Notes under the pieces: model-generated
The model's input: only the letters and a program-made list of their open reading frames with translations
What the model was told of the DNA's origin: nothing
Database searches by the model: none
Position numbers and translations under genes: made by a program
Shown here: piece by piece, positions 11,750-24,197 of the stretch
How the letters are laid out: each line of letters starts with the position of its first letter
Position numbering within the stretch: position 1 is the first letter of the stretch
DNA from: Mycobacterium sp.
GTDB taxonomy: Bacteria; Actinomycetota; Actinomycetes; Mycobacteriales; Mycobacteriaceae
DNA: 64,000 bases
Assembly (NCBI GenBank): GCA_020438845.1
Contig: JAGQTV010000019.1
Location: 1-64,000 of the forward strand
Reading direction: 5' to 3'

Positions 11750-12579
11750 TGCGCCGCTGGGCGTTTCTGCTGCGACCGGGCTGGATCGCCCTGGCTCTGG
11801 TCGTCGCGGCGTTCGCTTACCTGGCCTTCACTGTGCTGGCGCCGTGGCAACTCGGCAAGAACGCCAGGACGTCCAAAGAGAACCAGCAGATCGAGGCGTC
11901 CCTGTCGGCCGCCCCTGTGCCAGTGACATCCTTTCTGCCGCAGCAGGATTCGTCAGCTCCTGAAGCGCAGTGGCGACAGGTGACCGCCACCGGCCGGTAT
12001 CTTCCGGCCGGCCAGGTGCTGGCTCGGCTGCGGGTGGTCGACGGCGCGCCCGCCTACGACGTGTTGACCCCTTTTGCTGTCCAGGGCGGGCCCACCGTGC
12101 TGGTCGACCGCGGCTACGTCCGTCCGGAGCAGGGCAACAAGGTGCCCCCCATCGCGAGCCCACCGGACGGGACGGTGACGATCACCGCGCGGCTGCGCGA
12201 TTCCGAAACCGCCCCCACCACCGACAGGAAGCCGTTCACCGAGAGCGGGTTCTTGCAGGTGTACGCCATTGACACAACCCAGGTGGCAGCGCTGACCCAT
12301 GTGCCGTTGACGGGTTCCTACCTCCAGTTGGTTGACGGCCAGCCCGGTGGACTGGGTGTTCTGGCGCTGCCTAATCTCGACGCCGGACCGTTCCTGTCCT
12401 ACGGAATCCAGTGGATCGCCTTCGGCATCCTGGCCCCAATAGGGTTGGGGTACTTCGTATTCGCCGAGATTCGGACACGCCGCCGGGAGGCGGCCACCGG
12501 GCGGCAGGTCGCCGAAAAGCCCGCCGAACAGCTCACCGTCGAAGAGAAACTCTCCGATCGGTACGGCCGGCGGCGCTGA
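11749..12579 (+). CDS. SURF1-family protein
   Basis: 276 aa membrane protein. One helix lies near the N-terminus (residues ~5-25, PGWIALALVVAAFAYLAF) and a second near 215-240 (GIQWIAFGILAPIGLGYFVF), with an extracytoplasmic domain between, which is the SURF1/Shy1 topology. APWQLGKNARTSKEN and LVDRGYVRP are conserved family positions. SURF1 assists cytochrome oxidase (aa3) assembly. It directly follows ptpA with a 1-nt overlap, as in Rv2234-Rv2235. The 3' end overlaps the convergent cobD by 47 bp. Confidence 0.88.
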   Translation: MRRWAFLLRPGWIALALVVAAFAYLAFTVLAPWQLGKNARTSKENQQIEASLSAAPVPVTSFLPQQDSSAPEAQWRQVTATGRYLPAGQVLARLRVVDGAPAYDVLTPFAVQGGPTVLVDRGYVRPEQGNKVPPIASPPDGTVTITARLRDSETAPTTDRKPFTESGFLQVYAIDTTQVAALTHVPLTGSYLQLVDGQPGGLGVLALPNLDAGPFLSYGIQWIAFGILAPIGLGYFVFAEIRTRRREAATGRQVAEKPAEQLTVEEKLSDRYGRRR

Positions 12580-13498
12580 TCGCCACCGCGGCCGTCAACG
12601 CACCAAGCTGTACCAGCCGAGACAACCGCACCGCCCGGCGCAGATCCGACACACCTGGGCGTACCCCGTCACCCAGTGTGGGACGATTCTCCAACTCATG
12701 CCGATACTGGGTCGGGCCGCCGAGGCGCACCCCGAGGGCGCCGGCGAACGCGGCCTCCACAACTCCGGCGTTCGGGCTGGGGTGGCGCCCCGCGTCGCGC
12801 CACCAGGCCCGCAGCGCACCGACCGGCGAGCCCCCTATCAACGGCGCACACACCACTGTGATGGCCGCCGTGGCACGGGCGGCCGCGAAGTTGACGAGGT
12901 CATCCAGTCGGGCTGCAGCCCAACCGAATCGGTGGTAACGCGGGGAACGATTGCCCACCATCGCATCGAGGGTGTTGATGCCCCGGTAGACCAGCACCCC
13001 CGGCACCCCTGCACAGGCAGCCCACAGCAGCGGTGCCACCTGCGCGTCGGAGGTGTTCTCTGCCACCGATTCGCAGGCGGCCCGGACCAGTCCGTCGCTG
13101 TCCAGCGCAGCCGGGTCACGCCCGCACAGCGATGGCAGCAGTTGCCTGGCACCCGCGATATCACCAGCCTCGAGCAGGTCAGCCATCCCTGCACCGGTGC
13201 GTGCCAGCGTCGTACCGCCGAGCGCCACCCAGGTGGCCGCCGCGGTCAGGGCCACCAATCCCGGCCCGCGCCCGGCGGCGCGCTGCCCCAGCACACCGAC
13301 GCCGGCCAGTCCACCGATGAGCACCGCAGTGTGCACTGTTCCCGCAGCGCGACCATCCCGGTAGATCAGCGCCTCGCCGACGGCCGCACACCTGCCGAAT
13401 CCGGCCACCGGGTGACCCCGCTGCGGGTCGCCGAAGAGAACGTCGGCCAGGTAACCGACGACGATCCCAGCCAGCCGCGACCACCTGAGGTCAGCCAT
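12533..13498 (-). CDS. cobD: Adenosylcobinamide-phosphate synthase CobD/CbiB
   Basis: 321 aa integral membrane protein. The N-terminus YLADVLFGDPQRGHPVAGFG is the family signature; SVAENTSDAQVAPLLWA and YRGINTLDAMVG are further conserved segments. It joins the aminopropanol phosphate arm to adenosylcobyric acid. Matches Rv2236c in size and position. Convergent with the SURF1 gene, overlapping at the 3' ends; divergent from the secreted GH114 protein with about 165 bp between them. Confidence 0.92.
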   Translation of the reverse strand: MADLRWSRLAGIVVGYLADVLFGDPQRGHPVAGFGRCAAVGEALIYRDGRAAGTVHTAVLIGGLAGVGVLGQRAAGRGPGLVALTAAATWVALGGTTLARTGAGMADLLEAGDIAGARQLLPSLCGRDPAALDSDGLVRAACESVAENTSDAQVAPLLWAACAGVPGVLVYRGINTLDAMVGNRSPRYHRFGWAAARLDDLVNFAAARATAAITVVCAPLIGGSPVGALRAWWRDAGRHPSPNAGVVEAAFAGALGVRLGGPTQYRHELENRPTLGDGVRPGVSDLRRAVRLSRLVQLGALTAAVAISAAGRTDRRVSLRR

Positions 13499-13664: not shown

Positions 13665-15605
13665 ATGAGCACACCGGCGCAGGTAGGTCGGCTCAGTGGT
13701 GTGGCGCTGGCCGTGGGGATCGGGGTTCTCTCCTGCGGTGGCACCGGGCTCGCGTGGGCCGATCCGGATCCATCGGTGTCGGCGGACGGGAGGGGACGGG
13801 TTGTCGCCACCAGGTCCGTTTCGCCTGCCACTGTCCCGCGTTCGTGGGCGGGACGAAACCCACGCTCCGCGGCCTCGGCCGGGGTCCCGGCACCGAAGAT
13901 TCCGGCCAAGTCAGCTTCCCGTCGGGCACCGGAGGTCGGAGCGGGCACATCCGCCGCCGGCGGCGCCCACGCCCGTGCGGCGGCCCGGAACTCCGGGTTC
14001 TTCGCAGGCCTGGCCGCGTTCTTCAACAACCAGACACCGAGGCTGAGCCCGAGCCAAGGTGCGCAAACCCCCGCAGGTGTGGTCACCGGCGCGCTCAACG
14101 CGGTCGATCCCGACAGTGACCAGCTGACCTTTGCGGTCACCTCACAGGCTGCACACGGCACAGCGACGGTCTCCGCCGACGGCTCCTGGACCTATGTCCC
14201 GGCTCCGAGCGTGGCCCTTACCGGGGTTACCGACTCGTTCGAGGTGACCGTCAGCGACGCAGCGAGCGGTTTCGCCCTCCACGGCCTGGCCGGGCTGGTC
14301 CACCTGCTCAGCTTCGGACTGATCGGACGCCGCGGAGACTCCAGCAGCGCCACCGTCGTCGTGGCGGTCGCACCGTTCGACGCCGTCAACACTCCCCCAA
14401 CCGGCAGGCCCACCATCGCCGGCATCGACCCGGTCACCGGGGTGGTCAGCGGTTCCGTCAACGGCAGCGACCCCGACGGTGACAGTCTCAGCTACGCCGT
14501 TACCGTCAGCCCGGCCAAAGGCGCCGTGATCCTTTCCGCGGTGGGCGCTTTCACCTACACGCCCACTCCGGAGGCCCGCACCGCCGCCGGGGCCCCGGAC
14601 GCCACGGCTGCCGATCGCAGCGACATCTTCACCGTCACCGTCACCGACGGCCGGGGCGGCAGCGCGGCTGTGGGAGTTCCAGTGAGCATCTCCCCCGTCG
14701 CGCAGTCACCGGATTCGGATTACCGGCAGGACATGCGCGCGTTCGTTATCGACATCGCCCGGCAGGCCCGTCTGGTCAACCCGGCCTTCATCGTCATTCC
14801 GCAGAACGGCCAGGAGTTGATCACCCAGAACGGCGAGGCGGACGGTCCCCTTGCCGTCGCATACGCCGCGGCCATCGACGGTCAGGGACGCGAAGACCTC
14901 TTCTACGGCTACACCTTCGACAACGTGGCCACACCCGCCGCGGAGCGCAACTACATGCTGGAGTTCCTCGACCGCGAGGAGGCCGCGGGTGTGCAGGTTC
15001 TGGTGACCGACTACGCGTCATCCGCGGCGAAAGTCGACAACTCCTACGCCCAGAACGCGGCGCACGGCTTCATTTCATTCGCCGCCAATCACCGTGACCT
15101 TGACACGATCCCGCCCCGGCCGGCCGAACCGGTCGGCGTCAATTCCGACGACATAGCGAACCTCGCGCAGGCGCGGAACTTCCTCTACGTGCTCGACCCC
15201 GGCCGGTTCCAATCCCAAGCCGGCTACCTCGACGCCTTGGCTTCGACCAACTACGACGTCCTGATCATCGATGCGTTCTATGACGACCAGGCACTTACCG
15301 CAGCGGAAGTGGCGGCGCTGCAGACGAAAGCCAACGGCGGCCGCCGATTGGTGATCGCCTACATGAGCATCGGAGAGGCTGAGGACTACCGCTACTACTG
15401 GCAGGCGGGCTGGCGGCCGGGTTCACCGTCCTGGCTCGATAGCGAGAATCCGGACTGGGCTGGAAACTACAAGGTTCGCTACTGGGAACAGGGGTGGCAG
15501 GACATCATCCTCAGCGGTCCTGATGCCTACCTCAATCGCATCACCGCTGCCGGATTCGACGGCGTCTACCTCGACCTCATCGATGCTTTCGAGTACTTCG
15601 AATAG
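13665..15605 (+). CDS. Secreted Ig-like/GH114 (polygalactosaminidase-type) protein with permuted barrel
   Basis: 646 aa from ATG 13665, with GGGGGTGAG upstream; TTG 13647 and GTG 13656 are alternatives. The signal peptide ends near GLAWA. Residues ~30-120 are low-complexity. Two cadherin/VCBS-like beta repeats follow (about 125-230 and 245-345, each with DPD-S/G-D-x-L). Residues ~353-646 match the GH114/TM1410 endo-alpha-1,4-polygalactosaminidase-like family: FIVIPQNGQEL (about 376-386), REDLFYGYTFDN, DVLIIDAFYDD (about 531), YMSIGEAEDYRYYW (about 565-580), NYKVRYWEQGWQ and GFDGVYLDLIDAF (Asp637, Asp640). In the canonical order the YLDxxDAF block precedes the IPQNG block; here it comes last and ends the protein. 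Predicted to act on an amino-sugar polymer outside the cell; unproven. Confidence 0.8.
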   Translation: MSTPAQVGRLSGVALAVGIGVLSCGGTGLAWADPDPSVSADGRGRVVATRSVSPATVPRSWAGRNPRSAASAGVPAPKIPAKSASRRAPEVGAGTSAAGGAHARAAARNSGFFAGLAAFFNNQTPRLSPSQGAQTPAGVVTGALNAVDPDSDQLTFAVTSQAAHGTATVSADGSWTYVPAPSVALTGVTDSFEVTVSDAASGFALHGLAGLVHLLSFGLIGRRGDSSSATVVVAVAPFDAVNTPPTGRPTIAGIDPVTGVVSGSVNGSDPDGDSLSYAVTVSPAKGAVILSAVGAFTYTPTPEARTAAGAPDATAADRSDIFTVTVTDGRGGSAAVGVPVSISPVAQSPDSDYRQDMRAFVIDIARQARLVNPAFIVIPQNGQELITQNGEADGPLAVAYAAAIDGQGREDLFYGYTFDNVATPAAERNYMLEFLDREEAAGVQVLVTDYASSAAKVDNSYAQNAAHGFISFAANHRDLDTIPPRPAEPVGVNSDDIANLAQARNFLYVLDPGRFQSQAGYLDALASTNYDVLIIDAFYDDQALTAAEVAALQTKANGGRRLVIAYMSIGEAEDYRYYWQAGWRPGSPSWLDSENPDWAGNYKVRYWEQGWQDIILSGPDAYLNRITAAGFDGVYLDLIDAFEYFE

Positions 15606-15701
15606 GTCACGTCCGCAGCGCTGGTCAAGGTGGGACGGAACGCGTCGTCAGCGAGTACCGTGTTGACGCTTGGTCATGTGATCGAAAGAGATGAGGCCTC
15701 G

Positions 15702-17186
15702 ATGAACAGTGTTGATGCCAGACCATTCCGGCGGCGCACCGCAGCGCTGGCAGCGGCGGCCGCGATCTCGCTGTGGCCCGTTTTCACTTCGATTCCGGTC
15801 AGTGGCGCAGAGCCGTACGGGGACGACGACGGTGGAAGCAGTTACAGCGACGACGGCGGCAGCTACGGCGGCGGCGAAGAAGGCACCGCCCCCGAGGACG
15901 CCGGCAGCTACGGCGGCGGCGAAGAAGGCGGCACTCCCGAGGACGGCGGCAGCTACGGCGGCGGCGAAGAAGGCACCGCCCCCGAGGACGCCGGCAGTTA
16001 CGGCGGCGGCGAGGAGGGCGGCACTCCCGAGGGCGGCGGCAGCTACGGCGGCGGCGAAGAAGGCACCGCCCCCGAGGACGCCGGCCAAGAACCTACCGGG
16101 GACACCGGCTACGGCGGGGGCACGGAGGGTACCGACCACGGCGGAGGCACGGAAGGTACCGAGCACGGCGGAGGCAACGAAGGCACCGAGCAGGGCGGCC
16201 AACCCAGCGGGGACACCGGCTACGGCGGGGGCAACGAAGGCAGCGGGCACGGTGGGCAACCGACTGGCGAGACCGGCTACGGCGTCGGCGATCATCTGGG
16301 TGAGAGCGGCATCATGCAGCCGACCGAGTTGGAGGCTCCGCAGTCGGATGTGACCGCAGTTGCCCGGTCACGTGCGGTTGAGGTCAGTTCCAGCGCGGCT
16401 TCCTCCGAGGAGATCACCAACTACCTGGAGTCGATCGAGTCGACGTCCACCCTCTTCACGGTGAGCAATGCAATGACGTTGAGCAGCCCGGTATCGCAGT
16501 GGAATTCCCGCTGGATCCGGTATGACCGCAACTACCGTCCGGTGTTCGTCAACCCGTATGCGAATCCGATGCAGGTGTTGTACCAGTACGGCGGGAAGAC
16601 TCAGAGCTTCACCGTGGCACCGCGGCAGAAAGCCGCGCTGAACGTGCCCGACCCGGGCGTCTACAGTTTCACCGCCTTCACCCGTCCTCCGTCGGGTCCG
16701 GTCTCCAACGTCTCGGTGGGCAGTTTCTCCGGTGGCGGATACCTGCCGCAACCAGGGCAGACACCACCCCAGAAACCATCGGCCTTACAAACCGTCACAA
16801 AGCCGATTGTCCAAGTGAAATTCGCCCAGGGCACTTCCGATCCGTTCCGGGTTAATTCGGTGGTTGATCTCGGCAAGGACGCTGCGGTCAACGGGGCCAC
16901 CAAGGTTCTCATCGACGGCGAGATCCCAGCATGGGGAGAATGGTCGAAGAGCAGCGCCGGCGAGGCGCAGTTCAACATCACTCAAACCCAGTTGCTGCCA
17001 GGCCTCAAGCCCCCAGGGCAAGATCCCTTGCCGGGATACAAGGTGAAGCTGGCCGCAGCATCGCACTCCACGTCCTGGTATGAGAGCAGCCGGGCCCACG
17101 TCATCGGAGCCTCTGTAGCAGCTGGCGTGTTGGCACTAGCGGCAGTGGCATTGTTCCTGATCAGACGCCGTCGGACTGAAGAGTAG
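15702..17186 (+). CDS. Repeat-rich surface protein with C-terminal anchor
   Basis: 494 aa from ATG 15702; an earlier in-frame start at 15630 would put 24 residues ahead of the signal peptide. N-terminal export signal (AALAAAAAISLWPVFTSIPVSGA). Five 15-residue repeats of the form GSYGGGEEGTAPEDA / GSYGGGEEGGTPEDG alternate, followed by related Gly/Glu/Thr repeats to about residue 205. The C-terminal ~290 residues have an unrecognised beta-rich domain ending in a membrane helix (VIGASVAAGVLALAAVALFLI) and RRRRTEE. This reads as a type I membrane protein with an acidic Gly-rich stalk exposed outside. I do not recognise a family. Confidence 0.8.
   Translation: MNSVDARPFRRRTAALAAAAAISLWPVFTSIPVSGAEPYGDDDGGSSYSDDGGSYGGGEEGTAPEDAGSYGGGEEGGTPEDGGSYGGGEEGTAPEDAGSYGGGEEGGTPEGGGSYGGGEEGTAPEDAGQEPTGDTGYGGGTEGTDHGGGTEGTEHGGGNEGTEQGGQPSGDTGYGGGNEGSGHGGQPTGETGYGVGDHLGESGIMQPTELEAPQSDVTAVARSRAVEVSSSAASSEEITNYLESIESTSTLFTVSNAMTLSSPVSQWNSRWIRYDRNYRPVFVNPYANPMQVLYQYGGKTQSFTVAPRQKAALNVPDPGVYSFTAFTRPPSGPVSNVSVGSFSGGGYLPQPGQTPPQKPSALQTVTKPIVQVKFAQGTSDPFRVNSVVDLGKDAAVNGATKVLIDGEIPAWGEWSKSSAGEAQFNITQTQLLPGLKPPGQDPLPGYKVKLAAASHSTSWYESSRAHVIGASVAAGVLALAAVALFLIRRRRTEE
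15858..16082 (+). repeat. 45-bp x 5 coding tandem repeat
   Basis: Units start at 15858, 15903, 15948, 15993 and 16038. Odd and even copies alternate between two variants (GTAPEDA and GGTPEDG), giving a 90-bp higher-order repeat, which suggests growth by two-unit duplication. Confidence 0.9.
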
Positions 17187-24125: not shown

Positions 24126-24197
24126 TGGGCGCGGAGGGTTTCGAACCCCCGACCGCTGGTGTGTAAAACCAGAGCTCTACCACTGAGCTACACGCCC
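24126..24197 (-). tRNA. tRNA-Val (anticodon UAC)
   Basis: 72-nt cloverleaf: acceptor GGGCGTG/CGCGCCC, D-arm GCTC/GAGC, anticodon stem CTGGT/ACCAG with loop TTTACAC (anticodon TAC), T-arm GGGGG/CCTCC-type with GTTCGAA, discriminator A. CCA is not encoded. Its 3' half is duplicated about 0.9 kb away. Confidence 0.96.

Follow-up and report, generated by a model that had tools for sequence, protein, structure and literature searches.

The closest described relatives of the enzyme considered here belong to glycoside hydrolase family GH191, represented by TM1410 of Thermotoga maritima (PDB 2aam, 9eux and 9euz) and by Env-GH191 (PDB 9ep5). The polymer associated with this family, Pel, consists of alpha-1,4-linked GalN and GalNAc according to PMC9135694, and Env-GH191 cuts Pel (PMC12054363). 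Hydrolysis of Pel or of GalN-rich oligomers is reported for Env-GH191 only, and TmGH191 is described as showing neither activity on nor binding of the galactosaminogalactan tested (PMC12054363). A second related family, the GH114 endo-alpha-1,4-polygalactosaminidases (Ega3; PF03537), is presented in that article as having the same fold and catalytic pair. Pel-cutting enzymes matter for biofilm dispersal.

Natural circular permutation has a precedent among barrel glycosidases in the GH70 glucansucrases as compared with GH13, and to our knowledge such permutations are rare in enzyme barrels and mainly limited to narrow groups. MalS of GH13_19 is described as a further natural permutation in a barrel glycosidase (PMC10223318). 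Both cases concern families unrelated to GH191, and further domains are permuted there too. Among exopolysaccharide systems, the PgaB deacetylase, a CE4 enzyme, is likewise circularly permuted and has an amino-sugar polymer of biofilms as its substrate (work cited in PMC10485009), a combination that the proteins described here would share; PgaB, however, is an esterase of an unrelated family. We found no description of a permuted GH191-type branch in the open-licence PMC papers searched.

Domain architecture and order of the half-barrels

The DNA analysed here (the window) is a stretch of 64,000 nucleotides from a Mycobacterium sp., contig JAGQTV010000019.1. On its forward strand, positions 13665-15605 form an intact open reading frame of 646 residues counted from the ATG, with an in-frame TTG 18 bases upstream. 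Residues 1-33, approximately (13665-13763, +), are a predicted export signal, which looks by eye to be of signal peptidase I type; the stretch up to Cys24 would pass as a loose lipobox too. An exported module of two Ig/cadherin-like repeats (Big_9, Cadherin_4/5; 13764-14699, +) follows; the repeats lie within the first ~340 residues and the enzyme domain takes up the last 300. The original prediction had placed two cadherin-like repeats ahead of the enzyme, and the Pfam match to Big_9 (E 1.7e-20) agrees.

The same prediction held that the two halves of the barrel are reversed, and the profile matches bear this out. Fragment 14700-15120 matches positions 186-307 of the NCBIfam profile TIGR01370 (E 1.8e-15) and fragment 15120-15602 matches positions 47-175 (E 8e-42); the 190.2 bits of the whole protein, against a cut-off of 181.25, are the sum of these two crossed pieces. 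By these matches and the strands of the model described below, the first half of the enzyme (14700-15110, +) is the canonical second half, beta5-beta8, with the predicted acid/base Glu410, and the second half (15180-15602, +) is the canonical first half, beta1-beta4, with the loop-tip Trp598 and the predicted nucleophile Asp637. A new linker (15111-15179, +; fragment residues 138-160, between strands 125-129 and 161-164) connects what were the C-terminal and N-terminal sides of the canonical chain. A phmmer search of the PDB returned TM1410 as a crossed pair, query 170-300 on chain 39-164 and query 11-110 on chain 178-267, and a profile of 67 permuted sequences matches both TM1410 and Env-GH191 in crossed order too. 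The canonical members have the opposite order throughout: TM1410, Env-GH191 and 22 canonical open reading frames place the first half ahead of the second. In these 22, only 3-17 residues separate the end of the first half from the start of the second, which places the cut of the permuted chain in the beta4-alpha4 loop and agrees with the earlier observation that the protein stops where the next canonical segment would start. In a TIM barrel this loop lies on the catalytic face; Asp637 stands nine residues ahead of the C-terminus.

With a phmmer E of 1e-30 against TM1410, the domain belongs with the GH191/TM1410 family by similarity. The beta1 to beta8 chain order of GH191, with Asp before Glu, is not what we found, as Glu410 precedes Asp637, and we file the window domain as a permuted sister branch of GH191 rather than as a plain member, distinguished by its opposite half order and its new termini in the beta4-alpha4 loop. 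The initial assignment to a GH114/TM1410 family thus holds for the TM1410 type and needs correcting in that the nearest named family is GH191, not GH114 proper. GH114 itself has the canonical order and is marginally similar in sequence (6oj1, E 0.15). Its profile PF03537 matches the C-terminal half of the window protein, the best stretch covering profile positions 14-119 of 231; a second stretch also passed in the 301-residue fragment, and a full-length match in profile order was not obtained.

Predicted fold and catalytic residues

AlphaFold2, given the window domain together with 66 of 80 kept relatives, closes both halves into one barrel (pLDDT 93.7, pTM 0.92). The model contains eleven strands of at least 3 residues, eight of which we assign to the barrel and three to an insertion. 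In fragment numbering, to which 345 is added for the protein residue, the barrel strands are 31-35, 61-65, 99-105 and 125-129 in the first half, by homology beta5-beta8, and 161-164, 187-190, 217-223 and 288-292 in the second, by homology beta1-beta4. Strands 226-228, 246-249 and 256-259 agree with a three-stranded insertion that follows beta3 in GH191 according to PMC12054363. A Foldseek search of the PDB gave 11 matches at E <= 0.001, all of them GH191 entries at 28-33% identity, with alignments spanning 148-150 columns of targets 272-287 long, that is, about half; longer alignments were to unrelated barrels at ~6-14% identity. A full barrel that its relatives match one half at a time is what a permutation is expected to give. 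The structural check suggested at the outset therefore comes out in favour of one closed barrel, which GH191 entries match over about half.

The roles of Asp156, Glu225 and Trp121 in TmGH191 are given in PMC12054363, and counting along the phmmer alignment places their equivalents in the window protein at Asp637, Glu410 and Trp598, respectively. None of the three varies in any of the 81 rows (the window domain and the best 80 of 200 relatives). By analogy with TmGH191 and Ega3, Glu410 is the predicted acid/base and Asp637 the predicted nucleophile. The open reading frame is intact, the modelled barrel closes and both predicted catalytic residues are present; the original prediction had taken this for a viable permuted barrel and not a broken gene. 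At residue 451 (15015-15017) the window protein has Ala; 78 of the 81 rows of the permuted branch have Cys there.

Distribution and origin of the permuted branch

The swapped order is not peculiar to the window gene; it marks a widespread GH191-type branch. A scan of GTDB genome contigs gave 200 confirmed relatives, of which the best 80 were kept; each of these aligns in one contiguous stretch at 51-62% identity, and half-domain profiles class all 80 as B-A, that is, with the canonical second half first. Record titles among these best 80 of 200 name Bacteroidota, Chlorobiota, Hydrogenedentota, Cloacimonadota, WOR-3, Poribacteria, Latescibacterota, Planctomycetota, Chloroflexota (Dehalococcoidia), Spirochaetales, Aquificota, a deltaproteobacterium, a Methylococcales bacterium and a Thermoplasmatales archaeon, among others; many of the records are MAGs, and single phylum labels may be binning errors. 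Copies from Fusobacteriota are more distant (34-35% identity) and likewise swapped. The swapped pair of TIGR01370 matches was present in all 31 searched genomes behind the kept loci and in 20 of 296 Bacteroidota genomes. TIGR01370 also matches in 32 of 396 Actinomycetota genomes, where the swapped pair occurs only in the window's own; nine weak matches there span the first half only and are thus silent on order. A survey of mycobacterial homologues, as first proposed, yielded none sharing the order: among 396 genomes of the genus, the window's own is the one that has the domain. Outside the genus, 1 of 24 genomes of the same taxonomic order has the domain (G058), in canonical form. Over 183 overlapping loci, the open reading frames comprised 120 B-A, 22 A-B, 22 with the A half only and 1 with the B half only. 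A further difference from GH191 is a lipobox-like Cys ahead of the domain, found in 73 of 81 permuted-branch rows (the window and the best 80 of 200 relatives) at 10-29 residues before the first invariant Met. The branch is easily overlooked, because family profiles score permuted members as two pieces.

Could the order instead be an artefact, arising from a mis-assembled contig or from part of an A-B-A-B protein made by tandem duplication? With its 118 contigs the window genome is a draft, and the domain is missing from the other 395 same-genus genomes sampled, which would fit such an error. The chance of this is virtually negligible, however, given that the same order recurs in 80 of 80 other loci (best 80 of 200), that the reading frame extends 0-13 residues past the match in 79 of these 80 (the last runs off its contig), and that half-domain profiles found no open reading frame with three or more halves, and hence no three-half intermediate, in the 183 loci. 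A real permutation might still have arisen more than once. Free searches of quick single-half trees require 3 and 2 changes of order, on trees with long branches, and a quick both-halves tree that retains one very long canonical row (L130) requires two. Against this, a careful tree on both halves that leaves out L130 separates 39 permuted from 15 canonical rows by one branch (98/95), a split present in 97% of 200 bootstrap trees, and for each half a tree with one permuted clade is not rejected and has the higher likelihood both times (p-AU 0.84 and 0.64). In a second careful tree, built on other rows, 6 canonical rows again stand apart (99/83). We consider several origins very unlikely; the position of all 39 permuted rows on one side of the 98/95 branch makes a single old permutation likely on the tree evidence. 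As GH191, GH114, GH135 and GH166 have Asp before Glu (PMC12054363), the canonical order is taken as ancestral. One swap seems to have founded a branch across many bacterial phyla and one archaeal MAG.

Pel association and proposed function

Two permuted genes adjoin genes of Pel type. In Cetobacterium the gene row runs permuted GH, GAF protein, DUF2194, an unnamed gene, PelF and PelG, and in the Bacteroidota genome G580 the permuted gene stands directly before PelF-like, PelG-like, canonical GH114, membrane and DUF2194 genes, all on one strand. Among 12 permuted-gene stretches of Bacteroidota, G580 is the one with a Pel-like operon; 10 of the 12 share other genes, housekeeping as judged by eye, away from the Pel-like operon. 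The stretches around 12 canonical GH114 paralogues, by contrast, all contain PelF-like and PelG-like genes, and 11 of the 12 a large DUF2194-type gene, the twelfth (G693) having DUF2194 just beyond the stretch; the gene families were checked in one of these twelve. In these Bacteroidota stretches, canonical GH114 thus belongs to the Pel-like operon, from which the permuted gene is mostly separate. A Cereibacter plasmid has a pelF-pelG cluster flanked by a canonical TM1410-type gene and a polygalactosaminidase gene.

Across genomes, a strong DUF2194 match (at least 190 bits; 22 of 296 Bacteroidota genomes) accompanies 18 of the 20 genomes with the permuted pair and 4 of the 276 without (Fisher p 5e-23, kinship ignored). 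With all 36 DUF2194 matches at E <= 0.001 the counts are 18/20 against 18/276, and a canonical paralogue by TIGR01370 occurs in 17/20 against 7/276, kinship being ignored here too; the canonical paralogue of G580 was also found, in its Pel-like gene row. Thermotoga maritima, the source of TM1410, matches PelG and DUF2194 in our controls. No match to DUF2194 was seen in any genome of the window's own 16-row clade (100/99). PelG exceeded its cut-off in 3 of 31 genomes searched and DUF2194 was found in 2 of 32, the window's own genome being negative for both and many of those searched being MAGs. The 20 kb fetched around the permuted copy of Fusobacterium vincentii held no Pel genes. The Pel link accordingly rests on other branches than the window's own.

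Several operons of Bacteroidota (L161, 1038-14719, with L162-L170 alike) have a Pel-like make-up of two PelF-like glycosyltransferases, an HD-domain protein, a canonical GH114, membrane proteins and a 1300-aa DUF2194 protein. The PelG-like protein of the L161-type operon is reached by no Pfam family, PelG included. On a Deinococcus aquaticus plasmid (L150, 1997-3807), two overlapping genes are annotated as polygalactosaminidase and as MJ1477/TM1410 family.

We consider it probable that the window domain is a permuted GH191-type barrel that stems from a single ancestral swap, cuts a Pel-type polymer and was transferred onto the host's Ig-like module. One ancestral event would have set beta5-beta8 ahead of beta1-beta4, presumably by duplication followed by trimming; the short linker would bridge the old termini, and opening of the chain within the beta4-alpha4 loop would have put the new ones beside the nucleophile, on the catalytic face. 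The active site would then be put together from both halves, the first supplying Glu410 and the second Asp637. The most likely activity is extracellular cutting of alpha-1,4-linked galactosamine polymers by a retaining endo mechanism. The host would have acquired the domain from a member of another phylum and attached it to an exported repeat module of its own.

The substrate is the part of this proposal most exposed to alternatives. We know of no activity for any permuted member, and there is a lesser but real chance that the permuted barrel acts on another substrate, or binds sugar without cutting, and is not a galactosaminidase. TmGH191, which lacks measured activity or binding on the substrates tried (PMC12054363), is a better sequence match to the permuted domain than Env-GH191, and the genomes of the window clade lack Pel-operon markers. 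Set against these points are the conservation of the catalytic pair and the loop Trp in every one of the 81 rows, the cutting of Pel by Env-GH191 and the two permuted genes beside Pel-type genes, and alpha-1,4-galactosamine polymers of Pel type remain the substrate that we infer, as is likely for GH191. It is quite unlikely that the enzyme serves the host's own envelope. Wall arabinogalactan carries galactosamine, and the repeat module is found on several other proteins of the same genome; that galactosamine is a single substituent, however, and not a polymer, and with one occurrence in 396 genomes of the genus the domain does not count among the core wall enzymes. Since neither PelG nor DUF2194 was found in its own genome, the host most likely uses the enzyme on the matrix of other organisms, that is, on a polymer made by others.

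Why the permutation was kept is a separate matter. One idea, unlikely though conceivable, is that it turns the enzyme over: with a lipid anchor at the N-terminus, only 10-29 residues ahead of the first invariant Met, the catalytic face would be turned to the membrane, whereas the anchor of a canonical lipoprotein leaves from the opposite face. If so, the branch would be a cell-proximal trimmer of Pel-like polymer beside canonical GH114, as in the single operon of G580, and the window form would have exchanged the lipid for a stalk of Ig-like repeats at the same point. Apart from this idea, the presence of both chain orders in the Pel-type operon of G580 offers a natural comparison of folding, anchoring and activity.

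The host gene and its neighbourhood

The window gene is a chimera of the host's own exported Ig-like module and the enzyme domain. The same genome holds 16 further matches to the module, with 50-53% identity for the best of them, and of 41 genomes searched 13 had a match, this one included. Paralogues in the same genome (L184-L190) carry it on a PhoX-like domain, on beta-propellers and on parts without a Pfam name, in the manner of a modular export set. We infer that the domain was gained by the host from another phylum, this being the direction of transfer suggested. The nearest tree row is a Hydrogenedentota MAG at 64% identity, which does not thereby name the donor. The GC3 of the domain (0.817, neighbours 0.76-0.81) is like that of the host, so that composition gives no sign of transfer; an acquisition would have to be of some age, or to come from a donor of similar composition.

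To the left, the gene is preceded by cobD (CobD/CbiB by Pfam; 12536-13498, -), the end of a conserved HAD-LMWPTP-SURF1-cobD block that all nine 14-kb stretches fetched from genomes of the genus share. The enzyme gene and the tested genes to its right occur in none of these nine. Six of 12 other genomes of the genus contain relatives of a DUF4344 gene on the right side; together with the conserved left block this indicates that the contig belongs to the host and that gene order is broken at the site of the enzyme gene. The next gene (15630-17186, +) is an open reading frame of 518 aa with a tandem Gly-rich repeat (SYGGGEEG...PED) and no Pfam match; its product ends in a hydrophobic stretch followed by Arg residues. 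Elsewhere the window holds a class A RNase P RNA cut by its edge (1-287, -) and a tRNA (24126-24197, -).
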